From a virus, in the IMG/VR virus record IMGVR_UViG_3300007734_000494, positions 1 to 23,474 of that record: a DNA stretch of 23,474 nt; one strand, given 5' to 3'. Below the pieces are notes generated by a model. It ran no database searches and had not been told where the DNA came from. It worked only from the letters and a program-made list of their open reading frames with translations. A program made the translations under genes and the position numbers. Shown one piece after another: positions 13,895-23,474 of this stretch; position 1 is the stretch's first letter; each line of letters opens with the position of its first letter.

Positions 13895-14593
13895 ATGAGA
13901 TTTGATGTCAGATCAAACATAAATGATGTTGTGAAGCGTGTCGGTAATTTCAAAAGAGAGATACCATTTGCGACTGCTCTTGCTTTGACTCAAACGGCTA
14001 TTGATTTGAAGAAACGTCAGATTCAAGAGATGAAGAACGTATTCAGTAATCCTGTTCCATATACTTTGAACGCATTAGATCATCGTCGTTCGACTAAACA
14101 AGATTTGAGATCAGAAGTTTATTTCAAAGAGTTTGCTGGTAAAGGCACACCAGCTTTCAAATATCTTATGCCAAACATCAAAGGTGGGCCTCGTAGAGCA
14201 AAGAGGCATGAACTGGCATTAAGAAGTTATGGATTGATGGGAGCGGATAAGTTTACTGTGCCATCAAATACAACACGATTGAACTCGGCTGGCAATCTAA
14301 CGGGTGGATACTATCGTCAGATGCTATCATCAGTTCAAGCGGCTGGTGATCAGAACCTGAAGAAAGGTTCACAGCGTCAGAAGAAAGCAAGAACAACATT
14401 CTTTGCAATCAAAGACAAAGGTATCTTTGAACGCAAAGGCAAACGGATTGCTCGACGATTGATCTTTGTCGATCAGCCAGTTTACAAACAGCGGTATGAC
14501 TTCTACGGATTGAGCGAACGATTCACTAAGAAGAACTTCCCCATAAACTTTGAGAAGGCATTCAAGATGGCTGTAGCAACGAGGCGTCGATAA
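13895..14593 (+). CDS. Phage virion protein, minor tail Z-like / head-tail region
   Basis: A 232-residue basic protein. The phrases ATALALTQTAIDLKKRQIQEMKNVFSNPVPYTLNAL, LRSEVYFKEFAGKGTPAFKYLMPNIKGG and AGNLTGGYYRQMLS match a virion-associated family usually annotated as tail or minor tail Z-like protein in phages with lambda-type head genes. The many lysines and arginines in the second half fit a structural role. It opens the late operon after the predicted promoter. Here it lies upstream of the terminase genes. The stop overlaps the methyltransferase start (TAATG). Confidence 0.65.
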   Translation: MRFDVRSNINDVVKRVGNFKREIPFATALALTQTAIDLKKRQIQEMKNVFSNPVPYTLNALDHRRSTKQDLRSEVYFKEFAGKGTPAFKYLMPNIKGGPRRAKRHELALRSYGLMGADKFTVPSNTTRLNSAGNLTGGYYRQMLSSVQAAGDQNLKKGSQRQKKARTTFFAIKDKGIFERKGKRIARRLIFVDQPVYKQRYDFYGLSERFTKKNFPINFEKAFKMAVATRRR

Positions 14594-15183
14594 TGTTGGA
14601 AGATATAGAGCGGTCTAAGTACGAACGCATCTGGTCAATGGATGAGTACAGACAATACTCGCCGGGCAAAGAGTCAGCACTGATCGCACATAAACTATTC
14701 GCACTAACATCAACCAAGACACTGATCGACCTCGGATGCGGTACAGGTAGAGCAGGAGACGTGTTCGCATCGATAGGCTATGACGTGACGCTCGTAGACT
14801 TTGTGCCGGCAGCAGTAGAGACAAGGCAGCTACCATTCATCGAGTCATGCCTATGGTCATTGCCTGATGATCTATATGCAGACCTCGGCTACTGCTGTGA
14901 TGTCATGGAACACATACCAGAGTCCATGATCGACAAGACACTCGACAACATACAACGAGTGATCGGCGAACAAATATTCTTTCAGATCGCATTGCAACCT
15001 GACTCATGCGGTCAACTGATAGGCGAGAGACTCCACCTAACACTCAGGTCAGCAGACCAATGGGATGAAATACTTTCAAAGAGATGGAAGAAGCAGTCAA
15101 TGACATCGAATGGCATCTGGGTGCAGTGGCATGGCATAGGGGGGGGGTCTAGGTTCTTCCCAGAGGTTCCCAATGCGAGGTAA
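14593..15183 (+). CDS. Class I SAM-dependent methyltransferase
   Basis: A 196-residue protein. Motif I is LIDLGCGTGRAG (residues 44-55), with the acidic end of strand 2 in LVDF (D69) and a DVMEHIP segment (103-109). This is a Rossmann-fold methyltransferase. The substrate is unknown: there is no DPPY, PCQ or target-recognition domain, so it is unlikely to be a stand-alone DNA adenine or cytosine methyltransferase. Codon choice differs from the neighbours (many ATA, CTA and ACA). A nine-G run (15139-15147) near the 3' end sets the frame of the last dozen residues, which look atypical. It precedes the ParB and glycosyltransferase genes and may act in the same pathway. Confidence 0.75.
   Translation: MLEDIERSKYERIWSMDEYRQYSPGKESALIAHKLFALTSTKTLIDLGCGTGRAGDVFASIGYDVTLVDFVPAAVETRQLPFIESCLWSLPDDLYADLGYCCDVMEHIPESMIDKTLDNIQRVIGEQIFFQIALQPDSCGQLIGERLHLTLRSADQWDEILSKRWKKQSMTSNGIWVQWHGIGGGSRFFPEVPNAR
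15139..15147 (+). repeat. Nine-G homopolymer inside the methyltransferase gene
   Basis: Nine consecutive G at 15139-15147 in an otherwise moderate-GC region. A change of one base alters the last codons: one frame stops within a few codons, the other reads past the present stop at 15183. Such runs slip in replication and in sequencing. Confidence 0.9.
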
Positions 15184-15236: not shown

Positions 15237-15866
15237 ATGGAAAAAATAGAAATTGAGTTGCTTAAACCAACTGATTTGATCCCTTATATTAGAAATGCTC
15301 GAACTCATTCTGACTATCAAGTTCAGCAAATTGCTGGCTCTATTCGTGAATTTGGGTTCACTAACCCTATTTTAATTGATGAAAATAATAATATCATCGC
15401 TGGTCATGGGCGAATGAAAGCGGCTGAAGTTCTACGTCTTCCAAAAGTTCCTTGCATTAGATTAAAAAATTTATCAGATATTCAAAAACAAGCATACATA
15501 TTGGCTGATAACAAACTTGCATTAAATGCTGGTTGGGATGCAGAATTATTAAAAATAGAAATAGAAGATTTGCAACTTGGAAAATATGACTTATCTTTAA
15601 CTGGTTTTAACGATGCAGAAATTGCTGCTGCACTAGCTGATGGTTTAAATTCAGATAATGTTAATCCAGATGAAGAATGGCAAGATATGCCTGAATTTAA
15701 TCAGAATGATGAAACTTCATGGAGGCATATAATTGTTCATTTTAACAATCAGTCTGATTTAGACAAATTTGAAATGTTAATAGAACAAAAAATTACGGAT
15801 AAAACTAAAAGCATTTGGTATCCTAAAATGAACAGAATGGACACAGAGTCAAAACGCTATGAGTAA
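15237..15866 (+). CDS. ParB/sulfiredoxin-fold protein linked to a base-modification glycosyltransferase
   Basis: A 209-residue protein. Residues 1-90 are a ParB-like domain: LKPTDLIPYIRNARTH, SIREFGFTNPILID and IIAGHGRMKAAEVLRL (residues 53-68), the last being the conserved GHxR-type loop. The second half has an acidic linker and a domain HIIVHFNNQSDLDKFEMLIEQKITDKTKSIWYP (162-195). It lacks the methylase domain that many phage ParB proteins carry. In ParB-like phage proteins the domain can have ATPase or nuclease activity. Pairing with a TET-associated glycosyltransferase is a known arrangement. The region is AT-richer than its flanks. AGGAG lies 9 bases before ATG. The stop overlaps the next gene by 8 bases. 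Confidence 0.8.
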   Translation: MEKIEIELLKPTDLIPYIRNARTHSDYQVQQIAGSIREFGFTNPILIDENNNIIAGHGRMKAAEVLRLPKVPCIRLKNLSDIQKQAYILADNKLALNAGWDAELLKIEIEDLQLGKYDLSLTGFNDAEIAAALADGLNSDNVNPDEEWQDMPEFNQNDETSWRHIIVHFNNQSDLDKFEMLIEQKITDKTKSIWYPKMNRMDTESKRYE

Positions 15867-16782
15867 CTATCCACAATTTCCATTTTATATTCCAACTAAA
15901 AGCAGGTCGGAATATATGATTACGAGTAAAATTTTAACAGAACTCGGGATTAAACATTATTTAATTGTAGAGAAAGAACAAATTTTAGAATATCAAAAAT
16001 CAATAGATCAAATGAATTTAATGGCTGAAATTTTGGAATTAAACGTGAATTATAAAAAAAATTACGAACTTTGTGACGATCTTGGTTTAAGTAAAAGTAC
16101 TGGACCCGGCCCTGCTCGTAATTTTGCATGGGATCATTCAAAACAAAATGGCTTCAAATGGCATTGGGTAATGGATGATAACATTACATCGTTTAGAATT
16201 TTAAATAACAATGAAAAAGTTAAAACTACGAATCCTGTAATTTTTAAATTGATGGAAGATTTCTCGCTACGCTATACAAATGTAGCAATGTCTGGCCCAA
16301 ACTATTATATGTTTGCACCAGCTAGACAAAAAATTCCACCTTTTGTAATTAACACAAGAATTTATTCATGCAATCTTATCAGGAATGATGTTCCTCATAT
16401 ATGGCGTGGAAGGTATAATGAGGATACGATCATTTCATTAGATATGTTAAAGGCTGGATGGTGTACAATTCAATTCAATGCTTTTCTACAACAGAAAATG
16501 CCAACGCAAACTATTGGTGGAGGTAATACAAAAGAATTTTATCATGCTGAAGGAGTTTTAAAAGAAGGACAAAAATATGCTGATAATGGAACGCTTGCAA
16601 AATCTAAAATGTTAGTCAAAGTTCATCCTGACATTTCAAAACTAGTTTGGAAATTTGGTAGATGGCATCATGTTGTTGATTATAAACCTTTTAAAAAAAA
16701 CATACTTGTTAAAAAATTAGATATTAAAATTAAAAATGAAATTAATAATTACGGATTGAAATTAAAAATTAAAAAGGATTAA
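15859..16782 (+). CDS. TET-associated glycosyltransferase (TAGT), predicted DNA base glycosylation
   Basis: A 307-residue protein. It has the N-terminal FPFYIPTKSR motif, a nucleotide-sugar segment GPGPARNFAWDHSK, and the DxD-like MDDN (residues 105-108) in FKWHWVMDDN. These are followed by NVAMSGPNYYMF, NTRIYSCNLIRND, WRGRYNEDTIISLDML (182-197), GGGNTKEFYH and GRWHHVVDYKPF. These match the TAGT family described in phages, predicted to attach a sugar to hydroxymethylated cytosine or related bases in phage DNA. MDDN would coordinate the metal and sugar nucleotide. No TET/JBP dioxygenase is in the window, so the acceptor base is open. Very AT-rich with many ATA and AAA codons, suggesting recent acquisition together with the ParB gene. 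Confidence 0.85.
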   Translation: MSNYPQFPFYIPTKSRSEYMITSKILTELGIKHYLIVEKEQILEYQKSIDQMNLMAEILELNVNYKKNYELCDDLGLSKSTGPGPARNFAWDHSKQNGFKWHWVMDDNITSFRILNNNEKVKTTNPVIFKLMEDFSLRYTNVAMSGPNYYMFAPARQKIPPFVINTRIYSCNLIRNDVPHIWRGRYNEDTIISLDMLKAGWCTIQFNAFLQQKMPTQTIGGGNTKEFYHAEGVLKEGQKYADNGTLAKSKMLVKVHPDISKLVWKFGRWHHVVDYKPFKKNILVKKLDIKIKNEINNYGLKLKIKKD

Positions 16783-19689: not shown

Positions 19690-21177
19690 ATGGGAATTTT
19701 AGACGTATTCAGAACTAAAAAACAGGTTGCAGTTCGTCGCCAAGACAAGCGTTCATATACGGCTGCATCTACAGGTCGTTTATTTGCTGATTTTGTTGCA
19801 AATACATTATCCGCTGATTCAGAAATTCGCCCGGCACTGCGTCCAGTTCGGGATCGTTGCCGTGATGTTTCACGAAATAATGATTATGCGGCTCGCTATA
19901 TTCAGATGATTACGACCAATGTGGTCGGTTCAACTGGAGTCAGAACACAGGTTCGCGGTCGGAACTCAGATAAATCTTTAGATACTGTCGGCAATCTCAT
20001 CATCGAACGCAATTTTGATAAGTGGGGAGCCAGAGGCGTTTGCACGATGGACGGCAAGATGTCTTGGCTTGATTGCCAAAAATTATTCATAAGCAATGTT
20101 GCAAGAGATGGTGAGTGTCTTGTTCGATTCGTCGAGACGAGAGAGAATCCATACGGTTTTGCTTTGCAGTTCATTGAATCTGACTATCTTGATGAGCAAT
20201 ACAATATGAGAGCAACAACCAACGGAAACGAAATCCGCATGGGTGTTGAAATCAACGAGTTTGGTCGTCCAGTTGCCTATTGGTTGCTTGAGAATCACCC
20301 CGGCAATACGATTTATGGAAAGACTGCAACTGTAAAACGAATCCGAGTTCCTGCTGAAGAAATGTTGCACCTGTTCATTCCTGATCGGGCTGGTCAGACT
20401 CGCGGATTCCCGTGGATGGCAACGGCTCTTACAAGGATGAAAATGCTTGATGGGTATGAGGAAGCTGAATTGGTCGCTGCCCGTACAGCGGCTTCCAAGA
20501 TGGGTTTCTTCACGTCTCCTGATGGTGATGGGTATTCTGGTGTAGATGTTGAGGATTACAATACTCCTATCATGGAAGCATCGCCGGGGACTTTTGAGCA
20601 GTTGCCGAAAGGAATGGAATTCACACCATTCGATCCACAGCATCCAGTCTCGGCATTCGGAGACTTTGAAAAAGCTGTTTTGCGTGGCATCGCGTCTGGT
20701 CTTGGTGTTTCGTATGTCTCACTGGCAAACAATCTTGAGGGTGTTTCCTACTCCTCAATCCGTCAGGGAACGATGGAAGATCGTGACCATTACAAAGTGC
20801 TTCAGCAATTTATGATCGAACACTTTATAGATCCGATTTACAAGAAGTGGCTGACGATGGCGATGGCAACAGGTGCGATACCATTGCCGATCACGAAGTT
20901 TGACAAGTTTGCTGACAATCTTGTCTATCGTGCAAGAGGTTGGAACTGGATTGATCCTCAGAGAGAAATTCAGGCTCATGTTATCGGATTGCAAAACGGC
21001 ATCATCACGATGCAAGACATCGCGGCAAACTACGGTCGAGACGTTGAAGAAGTCTTTGAACAGATTGATGCAGAGACTGAATTGGCTAAACAATATGGAA
21101 TTCAAACAGCGTTCCAACCATTCGGTCAGAAACTTCCTGCTACACCTATAGTCGATGGTGAAAATGGCACAGTATAA
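19690..21177 (+). CDS. Portal protein, lambda (gpB-like) family
   Basis: A 495-residue protein. It has the lambda-family features: R-P-V-R-D-R-C-R-D at residues 50-60 and NNDYAARYIQMITTNVVGSTGVRTQ, WLDCQKLFISNVARDGECLVRF, LLENHPGN, VPAEEMLHLFIPDRAGQTRGFPWMATALTRMKML, and GLGVSYVSLANNLEGVSYSSIRQG. It forms the dodecameric ring at the unique vertex through which DNA enters and leaves, and is the nucleus of head assembly. It lies directly after the connector candidate, and the capsid polyprotein begins 14 bases before its stop. Confidence 0.93.
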   Translation: MGILDVFRTKKQVAVRRQDKRSYTAASTGRLFADFVANTLSADSEIRPALRPVRDRCRDVSRNNDYAARYIQMITTNVVGSTGVRTQVRGRNSDKSLDTVGNLIIERNFDKWGARGVCTMDGKMSWLDCQKLFISNVARDGECLVRFVETRENPYGFALQFIESDYLDEQYNMRATTNGNEIRMGVEINEFGRPVAYWLLENHPGNTIYGKTATVKRIRVPAEEMLHLFIPDRAGQTRGFPWMATALTRMKMLDGYEEAELVAARTAASKMGFFTSPDGDGYSGVDVEDYNTPIMEASPGTFEQLPKGMEFTPFDPQHPVSAFGDFEKAVLRGIASGLGVSYVSLANNLEGVSYSSIRQGTMEDRDHYKVLQQFMIEHFIDPIYKKWLTMAMATGAIPLPITKFDKFADNLVYRARGWNWIDPQREIQAHVIGLQNGIITMQDIAANYGRDVEEVFEQIDAETELAKQYGIQTAFQPFGQKLPATPIVDGENGTV

Positions 21178-23474
21178 GGGAATTGAAATTGATCTAGTCC
21201 CAACTGATGCAATGGTCAGCGAGGCTGAACGAGGTCTTGCTTGGCGTAGAGAATTTGGTCGAGGCGGTACTGAGGTCGGTATTGCTAGAGCGAGAGATAT
21301 TTCAAACAAGGTTGATCTGTCTCCAGATACCATTCGTCGAATGACATCTTTCTTTGCTCGGCATGAAGTCGATAAACAGGCTGAAGGATTCCGACAGGGT
21401 GAAGATGGTTATCCGTCAAACGGTCGAATTGCATGGGCCTTATGGGGCGGTGATGCTGGTAAATCATGGGTCGAAGGAAAGGCAAAGCGTATGGACAAGA
21501 TCGACGAGACTGGCAGAGCGGCTTCTGATGCTTTGAATTTAGGTGATTTTGTTCAATGGGATTCATCTGGTGGGACAGCTAAAGGACAGATTGAACACAT
21601 TATGCGTGAAGGCACATTAGGGATTCCTGATAGTGAATTTTCAATTAATGCCTCTGAGGACGATCCTGCTGCATTGATTAGAATTTTTCGTGAAGGTGAA
21701 GAAGGCTATGAACCAACTGATACACTCGTTGGTCATAAGTTTTCTACTCTGACAAAGATTGCTGATCTGCGTTCTTATCATGATGATAAGCGACCTTATC
21801 CAAACGAACACGCTGCAAGATTAACCGATCCTGCACAGTACGATTCATTCCGTCGAAAAAATAATGATTTTGGCGATGGCATTGATGCGATATATGGGAT
21901 CAAGAGTGGAAAATCTGAGTTGCAAGCAATTCGGTTCTCCAAAAACAAGTTTACGGTTGCTGAAGCGAAGAAGTGGTTGGCTGATAATGATTACAAGCCA
22001 ATAATTTTTGAAGAAGCAACGATCGGAAGGAAAGATTCTATGGAACTCGAAAAGCGTCACATCATCGATGTTGCCGAAAGTGAGACTGCTTATGTCATCA
22101 CCTTTGCAAAGCATGAAGCGGCTGACATGGAAGATGAGCCAGCAATGGCTGAAGAAGCACAGCCAGAAATGGATGCTCCTTCAATGGCAGATGTTCAGGA
22201 ACCAATGACTGATTCTAACAATATGCAGAAATCATTCATCCCAACAAACGAAGTGCAACATCGTGCTTATGAGATGGGTGCAAATCCAGTTAACAAGGAC
22301 GAGCGGAGAGTTCAGATTGCAATGTCATCTGAAAAGCCAGTTGCTCGTTCTTTTGGCATGGAAGTTTTGGATCACAGTCCATCTTCCATTGATGTTTCGT
22401 TTCTCAATTCAGGTCGAGCACCTTTGTTGCTTGACCATGATCCTGAGAAGCAAATCGGAATCATCGAAGAAGTACGAATCGATGGCTCGGCTCGCGTGAT
22501 GCGAGCGACAGTCCGCTTTGGAAAAGGCGGTCTTGCCACCGAGGTATTCAACGATGTGGTTGACGGTATCAGGCAGAACATTTCTGTCGGCTACCAAGTT
22601 AACAAAATGGTTCGTGAAGATGGGGGAGACGGGACGGTCTTTCGCGTTAACAAATGGACTCCAATCGAAGCCTCTATTGTATCACTGCCAGCAGACTCGT
22701 CTGTTGGTGTTGGTCGGTCTATTGAAATCATCTCAACCCCAATTCAGGAGATTAAAATGAGTGAAGTTAATCAGGACGAAATGCGTTCCGCAATCGTTAA
22801 GCAGAATGCAGAAATCATTGAGACAGGTGCTCGTCTCAACAAGCGTGACATTGCTGAAAAGGCAATCGCCCGTGGTCTGTCGCTTGAGCAGTTCCGTGGT
22901 GAGTTGATTGAATCTTTCGGCAGCACAGCACTCGGCAATGGCACACACGAAATCGGCTTGAACAAGCGTGAGCGTTCATCCTATTCGCTTATGCGTGCAA
23001 TCAATGCTCAGGCTCGTCAGGACTGGTCTGAGGCTGGTTTTGAGCGTGAACTGTCCGACGAAATCGGCAAGCGTGTAGGCCGTACTGCTCGCGGCTTCTA
23101 CGTTCCATCTGATATGTCTTGGTCAAAGCGTGATGTTATCTCTGGTACAGCAACCAACACATCCAAGGGCGGCTACATGATCGGTACTGATCAGCGTGGT
23201 GATCTTTTCATTGATGCTCTCCGTGATACCATTGTCACTGCTGGCCTCGGTGCAACGATGCTAACTGGCCTTCAGGGCAATGTTGCGATTCCAAAACTTG
23301 CCACCAAGACGACTGTTGCGTTTGTTGCTGAAACATCTGCACCAACTGAAGGTGCTCCTGTTTTCGGTCAGCTTACGATGTCGCCTAAAACTGTCGCTGG
23401 TTATGTTGATATTTCACGCCGGATGATCATCCAGTCCGACCCATCGGTCGAAATGGTTCTCCGTAATGACATCA
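21164..23474 (+). CDS. Multidomain prohead protease-major capsid fusion, 3' truncated by window end
   Basis: One frame stays open from ATG 21164 to the end (770 complete codons). Residues about 40-120 hold RRMTSFFARHEVDKQ and PSNGRIAWALWGGDAGKSW, a domain found beside phage capsid genes. Residues 125-205 form a small beta domain (LGDFVQWDSSGGTAKGQIEHI). Residues 207-292 carry YPNEHAARLTDPAQYD. An acidic linker follows (about 315-370). The HK97-type protease covers 370-525: H425 in LLLDHDPEKQIG, S474 in NISVGYQV, with E502 as a possible third residue; the 49-residue H to S spacing equals that of the HK97 protease. A capsid segment with a helical delta domain starts at M532, then the HK97 fold. 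An AGGAG site at 22746-22750 precedes an in-frame ATG at 22757. A second, at GGAAGG 22025-22030, precedes ATG 22040. Confidence 0.88.
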   Translation, partial: MAQYKGIEIDLVPTDAMVSEAERGLAWRREFGRGGTEVGIARARDISNKVDLSPDTIRRMTSFFARHEVDKQAEGFRQGEDGYPSNGRIAWALWGGDAGKSWVEGKAKRMDKIDETGRAASDALNLGDFVQWDSSGGTAKGQIEHIMREGTLGIPDSEFSINASEDDPAALIRIFREGEEGYEPTDTLVGHKFSTLTKIADLRSYHDDKRPYPNEHAARLTDPAQYDSFRRKNNDFGDGIDAIYGIKSGKSELQAIRFSKNKFTVAEAKKWLADNDYKPIIFEEATIGRKDSMELEKRHIIDVAESETAYVITFAKHEAADMEDEPAMAEEAQPEMDAPSMADVQEPMTDSNNMQKSFIPTNEVQHRAYEMGANPVNKDERRVQIAMSSEKPVARSFGMEVLDHSPSSIDVSFLNSGRAPLLLDHDPEKQIGIIEEVRIDGSARVMRATVRFGKGGLATEVFNDVVDGIRQNISVGYQVNKMVREDGGDGTVFRVNKWTPIEASIVSLPADSSVGVGRSIEIISTPIQEIKMSEVNQDEMRSAIVKQNAEIIETGARLNKRDIAEKAIARGLSLEQFRGELIESFGSTALGNGTHEIGLNKRERSSYSLMRAINAQARQDWSEAGFERELSDEIGKRVGRTARGFYVPSDMSWSKRDVISGTATNTSKGGYMIGTDQRGDLFIDALRDTIVTAGLGATMLTGLQGNVAIPKLATKTTVAFVAETSAPTEGAPVFGQLTMSPKTVAGYVDISRRMIIQSDPSVEMVLRNDI
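22746..22759 (+). promoter_or_regulatory. Internal ribosome binding site and in-frame ATG at the capsid boundary
   Basis: AGGAG (22746-22750), six bases ATTAAA, then ATG (22757-22759), in frame with the fusion gene and exactly where the protease domain ends and the helical capsid delta domain begins. The signal is stronger than that at the upstream start 21164. It would allow capsid protein to be made in excess of protease. Confidence 0.65.

Follow-up and report, generated by a model that had tools for sequence, protein, structure and literature searches.

A conserved internal start in a fused accessory-protease-capsid gene suggests that one reading frame of a small phage encodes two products

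Phages that encode the prohead protease and the capsid protein in one frame pose a puzzle: how do they avoid making one protease per capsid subunit? It arises for the fused gene at the end of IMG/VR record IMGVR_UViG_3300007734_000494, which was analyzed whole as a single window of 23,474 bases. An open frame of 773 codons on the plus strand runs from an ATG at 21155 to the window end (21155..23474) without a stop and, because the window is the entire virus record, the gene is ended by the contig end and not by a stop codon. It encodes three accessory modules (here A, T, and E), an acidic linker, a predicted S78 prohead protease, a delta-type region, and the beginning of an HK97-type capsid protein. 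The initial annotation, made from the sequence alone, had proposed such a series of three modules, acidic linker, protease, and capsid, and both the open reading frame and hidden Markov model (HMM) matches bear it out. The full gene beyond 23474, which that annotation had asked for, could be read in a 95% identical relative (L002, complete protein of 954 amino acids) and in other close relatives (full-length proteins of 805 to 1012 amino acids, with the parts in the same order). That annotation overlooked, however, a conserved internal start at 22757, owing to which one frame need not mean one protein.

The candidate internal start codon (22757..22759, plus strand; residue 535, MSEVNQ...) is located in a disordered stretch separating the protease from the delta region, and it would begin a short form consisting of delta region and capsid protein. 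It follows a Shine-Dalgarno sequence, AGGAG (22746..22750, plus strand), with a pairing energy of -7.4 kcal/mol with the 16S rRNA tail, the strongest pairing among the 40 in-frame start codons of the gene. Positions 22746 to 22759 read AGGAGATTAAAATG, and the phage repeats the AGGAG-N6-ATG arrangement at ATG 6187 and ATG 6718, where two further genes appear to begin. Among 85 aligned relatives, an internal ATG occupies the same column nearly throughout. After relatives were clustered at 90% identity to give a first set, 30 representatives had a residue at that column; it was methionine in every one, and flanking columns were mostly 17 to 67% conserved. A Shine-Dalgarno site of -5 kcal/mol or stronger was found at 28 of these 30 internal starts, compared to 88 of 597 other in-frame methionine codons, and the internal sites were stronger than under synonymous recoding (z of -4.9). 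The Shine-Dalgarno core occurs in all three codon phases across relatives, and the four clades without that methionine have an ATG after AAAGGA slightly downstream, between protease and capsid.

We also examined a second set of 49 clusters, obtained from a new scan and absent from the first set, using the same threshold. A site 13 to 27 residues past the protease was present in 46 of the 49, compared to 80 of 983 (8%) other in-frame methionine codons, and 200 trials of a synonymous null gave a mean of 24 and a maximum of 32. The mRNA structure around the internal ATG was weaker than that at other methionine codons in 60 of 71 cases. In four groups of relatives, synonymous change just upstream of the ATG was below the gene average (0.057 versus 0.206, 0.08 versus 0.31, 0.198 versus 0.401, and 0.402 versus 0.556, respectively); since this window was not the single lowest one in any of the four, we take the synonymous rate as support and not as proof. 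An ATG after the protease is likewise shared by the known protease-capsid phages VP882, phiHAP-1, Persinger, Arya, ep3, R4C, RcRhea, PPpW-3, and PT1. Thus, the gene has, at the level of its sequence, what defines a nested gene, namely, a conserved in-frame start inside it that is preceded by a ribosome-binding site of its own. This is strong evidence of its kind, from which we infer that the start is used and that it sets the protease dose. Protease-capsid fusions are already known; in the open-access literature (subscription papers lay outside the search), we found neither an internal start reported for such a fusion nor a description of a conserved nested start combined with a modular front.

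Modules A, T, and E are under purifying selection (ratio of nonsynonymous to synonymous substitution rates, dN/dS, of 0.04 to 0.20 in comparisons with L002 and the relatives L003, L007, and L019), so the fused frame is translated and not open by chance, and the observation of one long open frame is confirmed. A sequencing error that joined separate genes, named by the initial annotation as the refuting case, is ruled out, since many independent loci, among them the isolates CRP-811, CRP-821, CRP-406, S-CBS1, and S-CBS3 as well as IMG/VR relatives, carry the same fused frame. Protease and capsid share one frame in 179 of 179 loci, isolates included, and occupy separate frames in none; these loci show 42 different spacings between the two. 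Nor is the three-module fusion unusual within this lineage, as had been supposed, since one scan alone gave 255 relatives. In phage CRP-823, which was not purified (PMC12629253), the fused gene is split into two "major capsid protein" genes (L088:4191). We did not take this as evidence for separate genes: one extra T in a TTT, relative to CRP-821, causes the split within module E and stems from an error or from recent mutation.

The frame would be expected to drift if the long form were not needed and the internal start to decay if it were not needed; neither is seen, which argues that the frame encodes two products. From the conserved ATG and Shine-Dalgarno sequence, the capsid protein is probably also translated alone, from 22757. 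The structure of the R4C capsid (PDB entry 8gta) bears on the fate of the N-terminal part, as the R4C gene is itself a protease-capsid fusion. The deposited shell chain comprises residues 362 to 629 of 629, and everything before residue 362, that is, protease and delta region, is absent; the internal ATG of R4C is residue 189. The first residue of 8gta_A aligns with residue 670 of L002, which places the expected start of the mature capsid protein near residue 672 of the window protein, at position 23168. By a rough packing estimate that assumes 415 copies in a T=7 head with an inner radius of 18 to 22 nm (about 20 nm), if all copies were of the long form, their accessory and protease parts would occupy 0.66 to 1.21 of the interior, and 0.81 to 1.48 once the delta region is counted. 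Heads of CRP-822 and CRP-406 measure 63.9 nm and 59.2 nm, respectively (PMC12629253), near the size of the HK97 head. This estimate and these head sizes together indicate that most subunits should be of the short form or else be trimmed very early.

The explanation we favor, and consider probable, is that the locus comprises two genes nested in a single frame. Initiation at the strong Shine-Dalgarno site at 22757 would yield the major product, which consists of the delta region and the capsid protein, while initiation at the overlap with the upstream portal gene would yield a less abundant, longer protein containing modules A, T, and E, the protease, and the same capsid protein. The long form would enter the procapsid shell as an ordinary subunit, carrying the protease and modules inside, so that two initiation rates would set their dose. 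After assembly, the protease would cut the delta regions and free itself and the modules. The fused frame, the conserved internal start, and the selection on and exchange of modules can be read from the sequences compared here; initiation at 22757, the minority status of the long form, co-assembly, and release are what we infer from them. The initial annotation had raised the possibility that the long protein is a minority form, and the present evidence favors that suggestion.

Several points weigh against this explanation. Glutamate-rich codons yield Shine-Dalgarno-like sequence by themselves, and the synonymous null for the second set already stands at 49%. Phages Alexa, Mano, Mica, MQ-4, and FoX5 carry only weak Shine-Dalgarno sites, and cyanophages S-CBS1, S-CBS3, and S-LBS1 keep the ATG without one. 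Cyanobacteria rely less on Shine-Dalgarno sequences, and in the clustered first set, only two cyanophage representatives were without any such site. The retrieval of loci was biased to fused genes, which makes the count of 179 versus 0 weaker than a census, and the packing estimate hangs on the assumed T=7 head and inner radius of about 20 nm.

The same data can be asked whether a single polyprotein would suffice, with only the long form made, one protease and one module set per capsid subunit, and separation by self-cleavage. The frame that is open in 179 of 179 loci and the purifying selection on accessory modules and protease would both fit, and the R4C shell lacks its N-terminal part just as self-cleavage would produce. 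However, this explanation leaves the conserved ATG with its Shine-Dalgarno sequence and the synonymous constraint unaccounted for, and by the packing estimate, a long form in every subunit would leave an HK97-size procapsid full or overfull. We therefore regard it as unlikely.

A tree built on the protease and capsid sequences of 79 loci requires at least 23 changes of module set (8 changes for A, 12 for T, and 7 for E). Loci that are near-identical in protease and capsid can differ in modules, as in L018 (A-T-E) and L031 (A-E), L054 (A-E-T) and L073 (A-E), and the pair L030 and L061. Four loci have the permuted order A-E-T, and other inserts are found as well, namely, a DUF5824-like module in L023, L033, and L084 and a cysteine-rich module in L079. 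Thus, the front modules are swapped fast and are nevertheless under purifying selection. Genes for HNH_3 endonucleases, 60% identical to each other, lie antisense (minus strand) inside the fused frame at two module junctions, one in L043 (L043:4310-4762) and one in L029 and L030 (L029:21-485 and L030:2771-3235). The sense frame stays open through them for 166 and 172 codons; the chance of this under synonymous recoding is 0.15 to 0.18 with the genes' own codon use and 0.003 to 0.013 with uniform use.

Module A is also found in other phages beside S78_2 and S78 proteases and in a protein that matches DUF2213 weakly, and it occurs in portal proteins of haloarchaeal viruses. Because maturation proteases of several unrelated kinds have A beside them, and portal proteins contain it, the modules probably act in the procapsid with the protease, which is the simplest guess for their role; ejected cargo is a more daring one. 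As cargo, the rapidly exchanged modules would be loaded through their fusion to a capsid subunit of the minority form. The adjacent protease would then cut them loose, and they would leave the head with the DNA in the manner of T4 internal proteins. The tally of architecture changes, with T alone accounting for 12, would be expected of cargo, as would the module differences between near-identical pairs and the selection on each module, but the presence of A in portal proteins and beside other proteases fits an assembly role, and we consider cargo about as improbable as the single polyprotein. A fuller version, in which domains are swapped in frame into a plug-in bay on a minority capsid subunit, freed by the protease in the head, and ejected into the host as effectors while HNH homing endonucleases drive the swapping, seems slightly less probable still. 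Finally, the internal start could be a relic without a present role of formerly separate, overlapping protease and capsid genes, and separate neighboring genes are indeed usual in related phages (annotated as such in phiPsal1), but a relic should decay, whereas this start persists in proteins that share about 45 to 50% identity, with variable codon phase and fewer synonymous changes, which makes this explanation very improbable.

Small separate proteins corresponding to module A are encoded outside the head genes of large phages, in Vibrio phage 150E35-1 (L112:3348-3731) and PaBG (L109:3465-3797), where they are annotated as DUF2945 or DNA-binding. In Limnohabitans phage DC31 (L089:1329-3340), A and T are in two neighboring genes upstream of a separate capsid gene, with A fused to an XkdF-type protease (PF14550) and T in the next gene.

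The protease region (residues 366 to 519; 22250..22711, plus strand) matches PF04586, TIGR01543, and part of NF045541. The Peptidase_S78 HMM (PF04586) scores 24.3 bits at residues 409 to 516 (cutoff, 21), and the candidate catalytic residues His 426, Ser 475, and Glu 503 (L002 numbering) are invariant in 34 of 34 sequences, so that profile and conserved residues together predict an S78 prohead protease. Residues 366 to 772 match phrog_617. NF045541, the protease/capsid fusion profile (threshold, 525 bits), scores 127.3 bits over profile positions 1 to 255 of 634, the window protein being incomplete at the contig end. The helical delta-type region (about residues 535 to 660; 22757..23134, plus strand) is predicted to be removed at maturation; the L002 model has helices at 536 to 586 and 602 to 639 and disorder at 653 to 680. 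The mature capsid protein, placed by its alignment to 8gta_A and its HK97 fold in Foldseek, would start at about residue 672 (GGYMIGTDQ) and run past the window (23168..23474, plus strand). The Phage_capsid HMM scores 30.8 bits at residues 672 to 772 of the window protein (cutoff, 24.2), and the complete L002 protein scores 111 bits with PF05065; Foldseek matched 8gta (E of 2.4e-18) plus HK97 entries, as expected of an HK97-fold capsid protein.

Of the front modules, A (residues 12 to 121; 21188..21517, plus strand) is helical in the predicted structure and matches phrog_2859 (4.1e-27). Module T (residues 125 to 205; 21527..21769, plus strand) is a Tudor/KOW-like small barrel belonging to the Hva1_TUDOR family (PF11160; 26.8 bits at residues 130 to 176; cutoff, 24.1). 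The closest solved folds to its model are Tudor/KOW domains (Z of 7.3 and root mean square deviation of 2.0 over 55 residues); this predicted fold agrees with the family and says nothing on function. Module E (residues 206 to 290; 21770..22024, plus strand), the NEHAARL...KFTVAEAKKWL domain, is without a curated family and is alpha/beta in the model; it recurs in relatives, alone or in other module orders. A match of E to BRX (PF08381) was rejected as chance because it is below the cutoff (23.2 versus 24.5 bits) and the only matches are to RLD2 plant proteins (E of 0.07 to 0.08). A structure search of the PDB with the three-domain model gave no confident match for A or E, with the T barrel filling the list; the search therefore does not show that A and E lack a known fold.

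The acidic linker (residues 296 to 365; 22040..22249, plus strand) is predicted to be disordered from the L002 model, with a predicted local distance difference test score (pLDDT) of about 30 over residues 290 to 370; residues 318 to 365 include 12 D/E and 2 K/R. A candidate further start lies between modules and protease at 22040 (residue 296), an ATG after GGAAGGAAAGATTCT. Of 32 relatives, 24 have similar sites, a count that exceeds the null of 17.2 +/- 2.2 only modestly; as glutamate codons abound in the linker, we rate this start as no more than suggestive.

Directly upstream of the fused gene is the portal protein gene (19690..21177, plus strand; TIGR01539, 386.6 bits; phrog_21), whose 3' end is overlapped by 23 bases if the long form starts at ATG 21155 and by 14 if it starts at ATG 21164. 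The latter (21164..21166, plus strand; MAQYKG...) has a weak Shine-Dalgarno site (-2.7 kcal/mol, versus +2.2 kcal/mol for 21155) and is the better candidate, since relatives start with M-x-x-YKG at that point. Elsewhere in the window, a TET-associated glycosyltransferase (15859-16782; PF20691, 121.9 bits) adjoins a ParB_N protein (15237-15866) and a methyltransferase-like protein (14593-15183), and together the three resemble a DNA hypermodification cassette, here in a phage of small size.

The junction ribosome-binding site and ATG offer a testable answer to the puzzle of protease-capsid fusions for the whole group, including VP882, R4C, and CRP-822: one frame, two products, and a dose set by initiation. 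If this is true, database entries that call the entire frame "major capsid protein" misplace the start of the abundant protein. In addition, the quick in-frame exchange of front modules provides a natural variant series for finding their roles.

How does this locus compare to known systems? In the type represented by VP882, phiHAP-1, ep3, and R4C (phrog_617; NF045541), an S78 protease is likewise in frame with a delta region and an HK97 capsid, and an ATG lies 16 to 39 residues past the protease, mostly with a Shine-Dalgarno site; those frames are about 640 to 740 amino acids long, versus 954 here, and VP882 is without A, T, and E before the protease. Roseobacter phages CRP-811, CRP-821, CRP-822, CRP-831, and CRP-406 and Synechococcus phages S-CBS1 and S-CBS3 share the order terL, portal, and fused gene and have the same fused frame with A, E, or T in differing sets (A-T in CRP-811, A-X-E in CRP-821, A only in CRP-406, and A-E in S-CBS1 and S-CBS3). 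Their fused genes are annotated solely as "major capsid protein," and the CRP phage report makes no mention of a protease, a fusion, or an internal start (PMC12629253). An apparent protease-capsid gene fusion has been described for Arthrobacter clusters AM, AU, and AN and for Rhodobacter RcC, in passages that mention neither a nested start nor accessory modules (PMC5513430, PMC8601537). HK97 gp4 and gp5 have the same folds, an S78 protease and a delta-capsid protein, but are encoded by separate genes without accessory modules. In lambda C/Nu3 and herpesvirus UL26/UL26.5, a protease gene contains an in-frame internal start that gives the shared C-terminal part alone. That shared part is a scaffold, whereas the shared product here would be the delta region and capsid protein. 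Thus, as judged from its sequence, the locus is best read as working like lambda C/Nu3, with the capsid protein shared in place of the scaffold.

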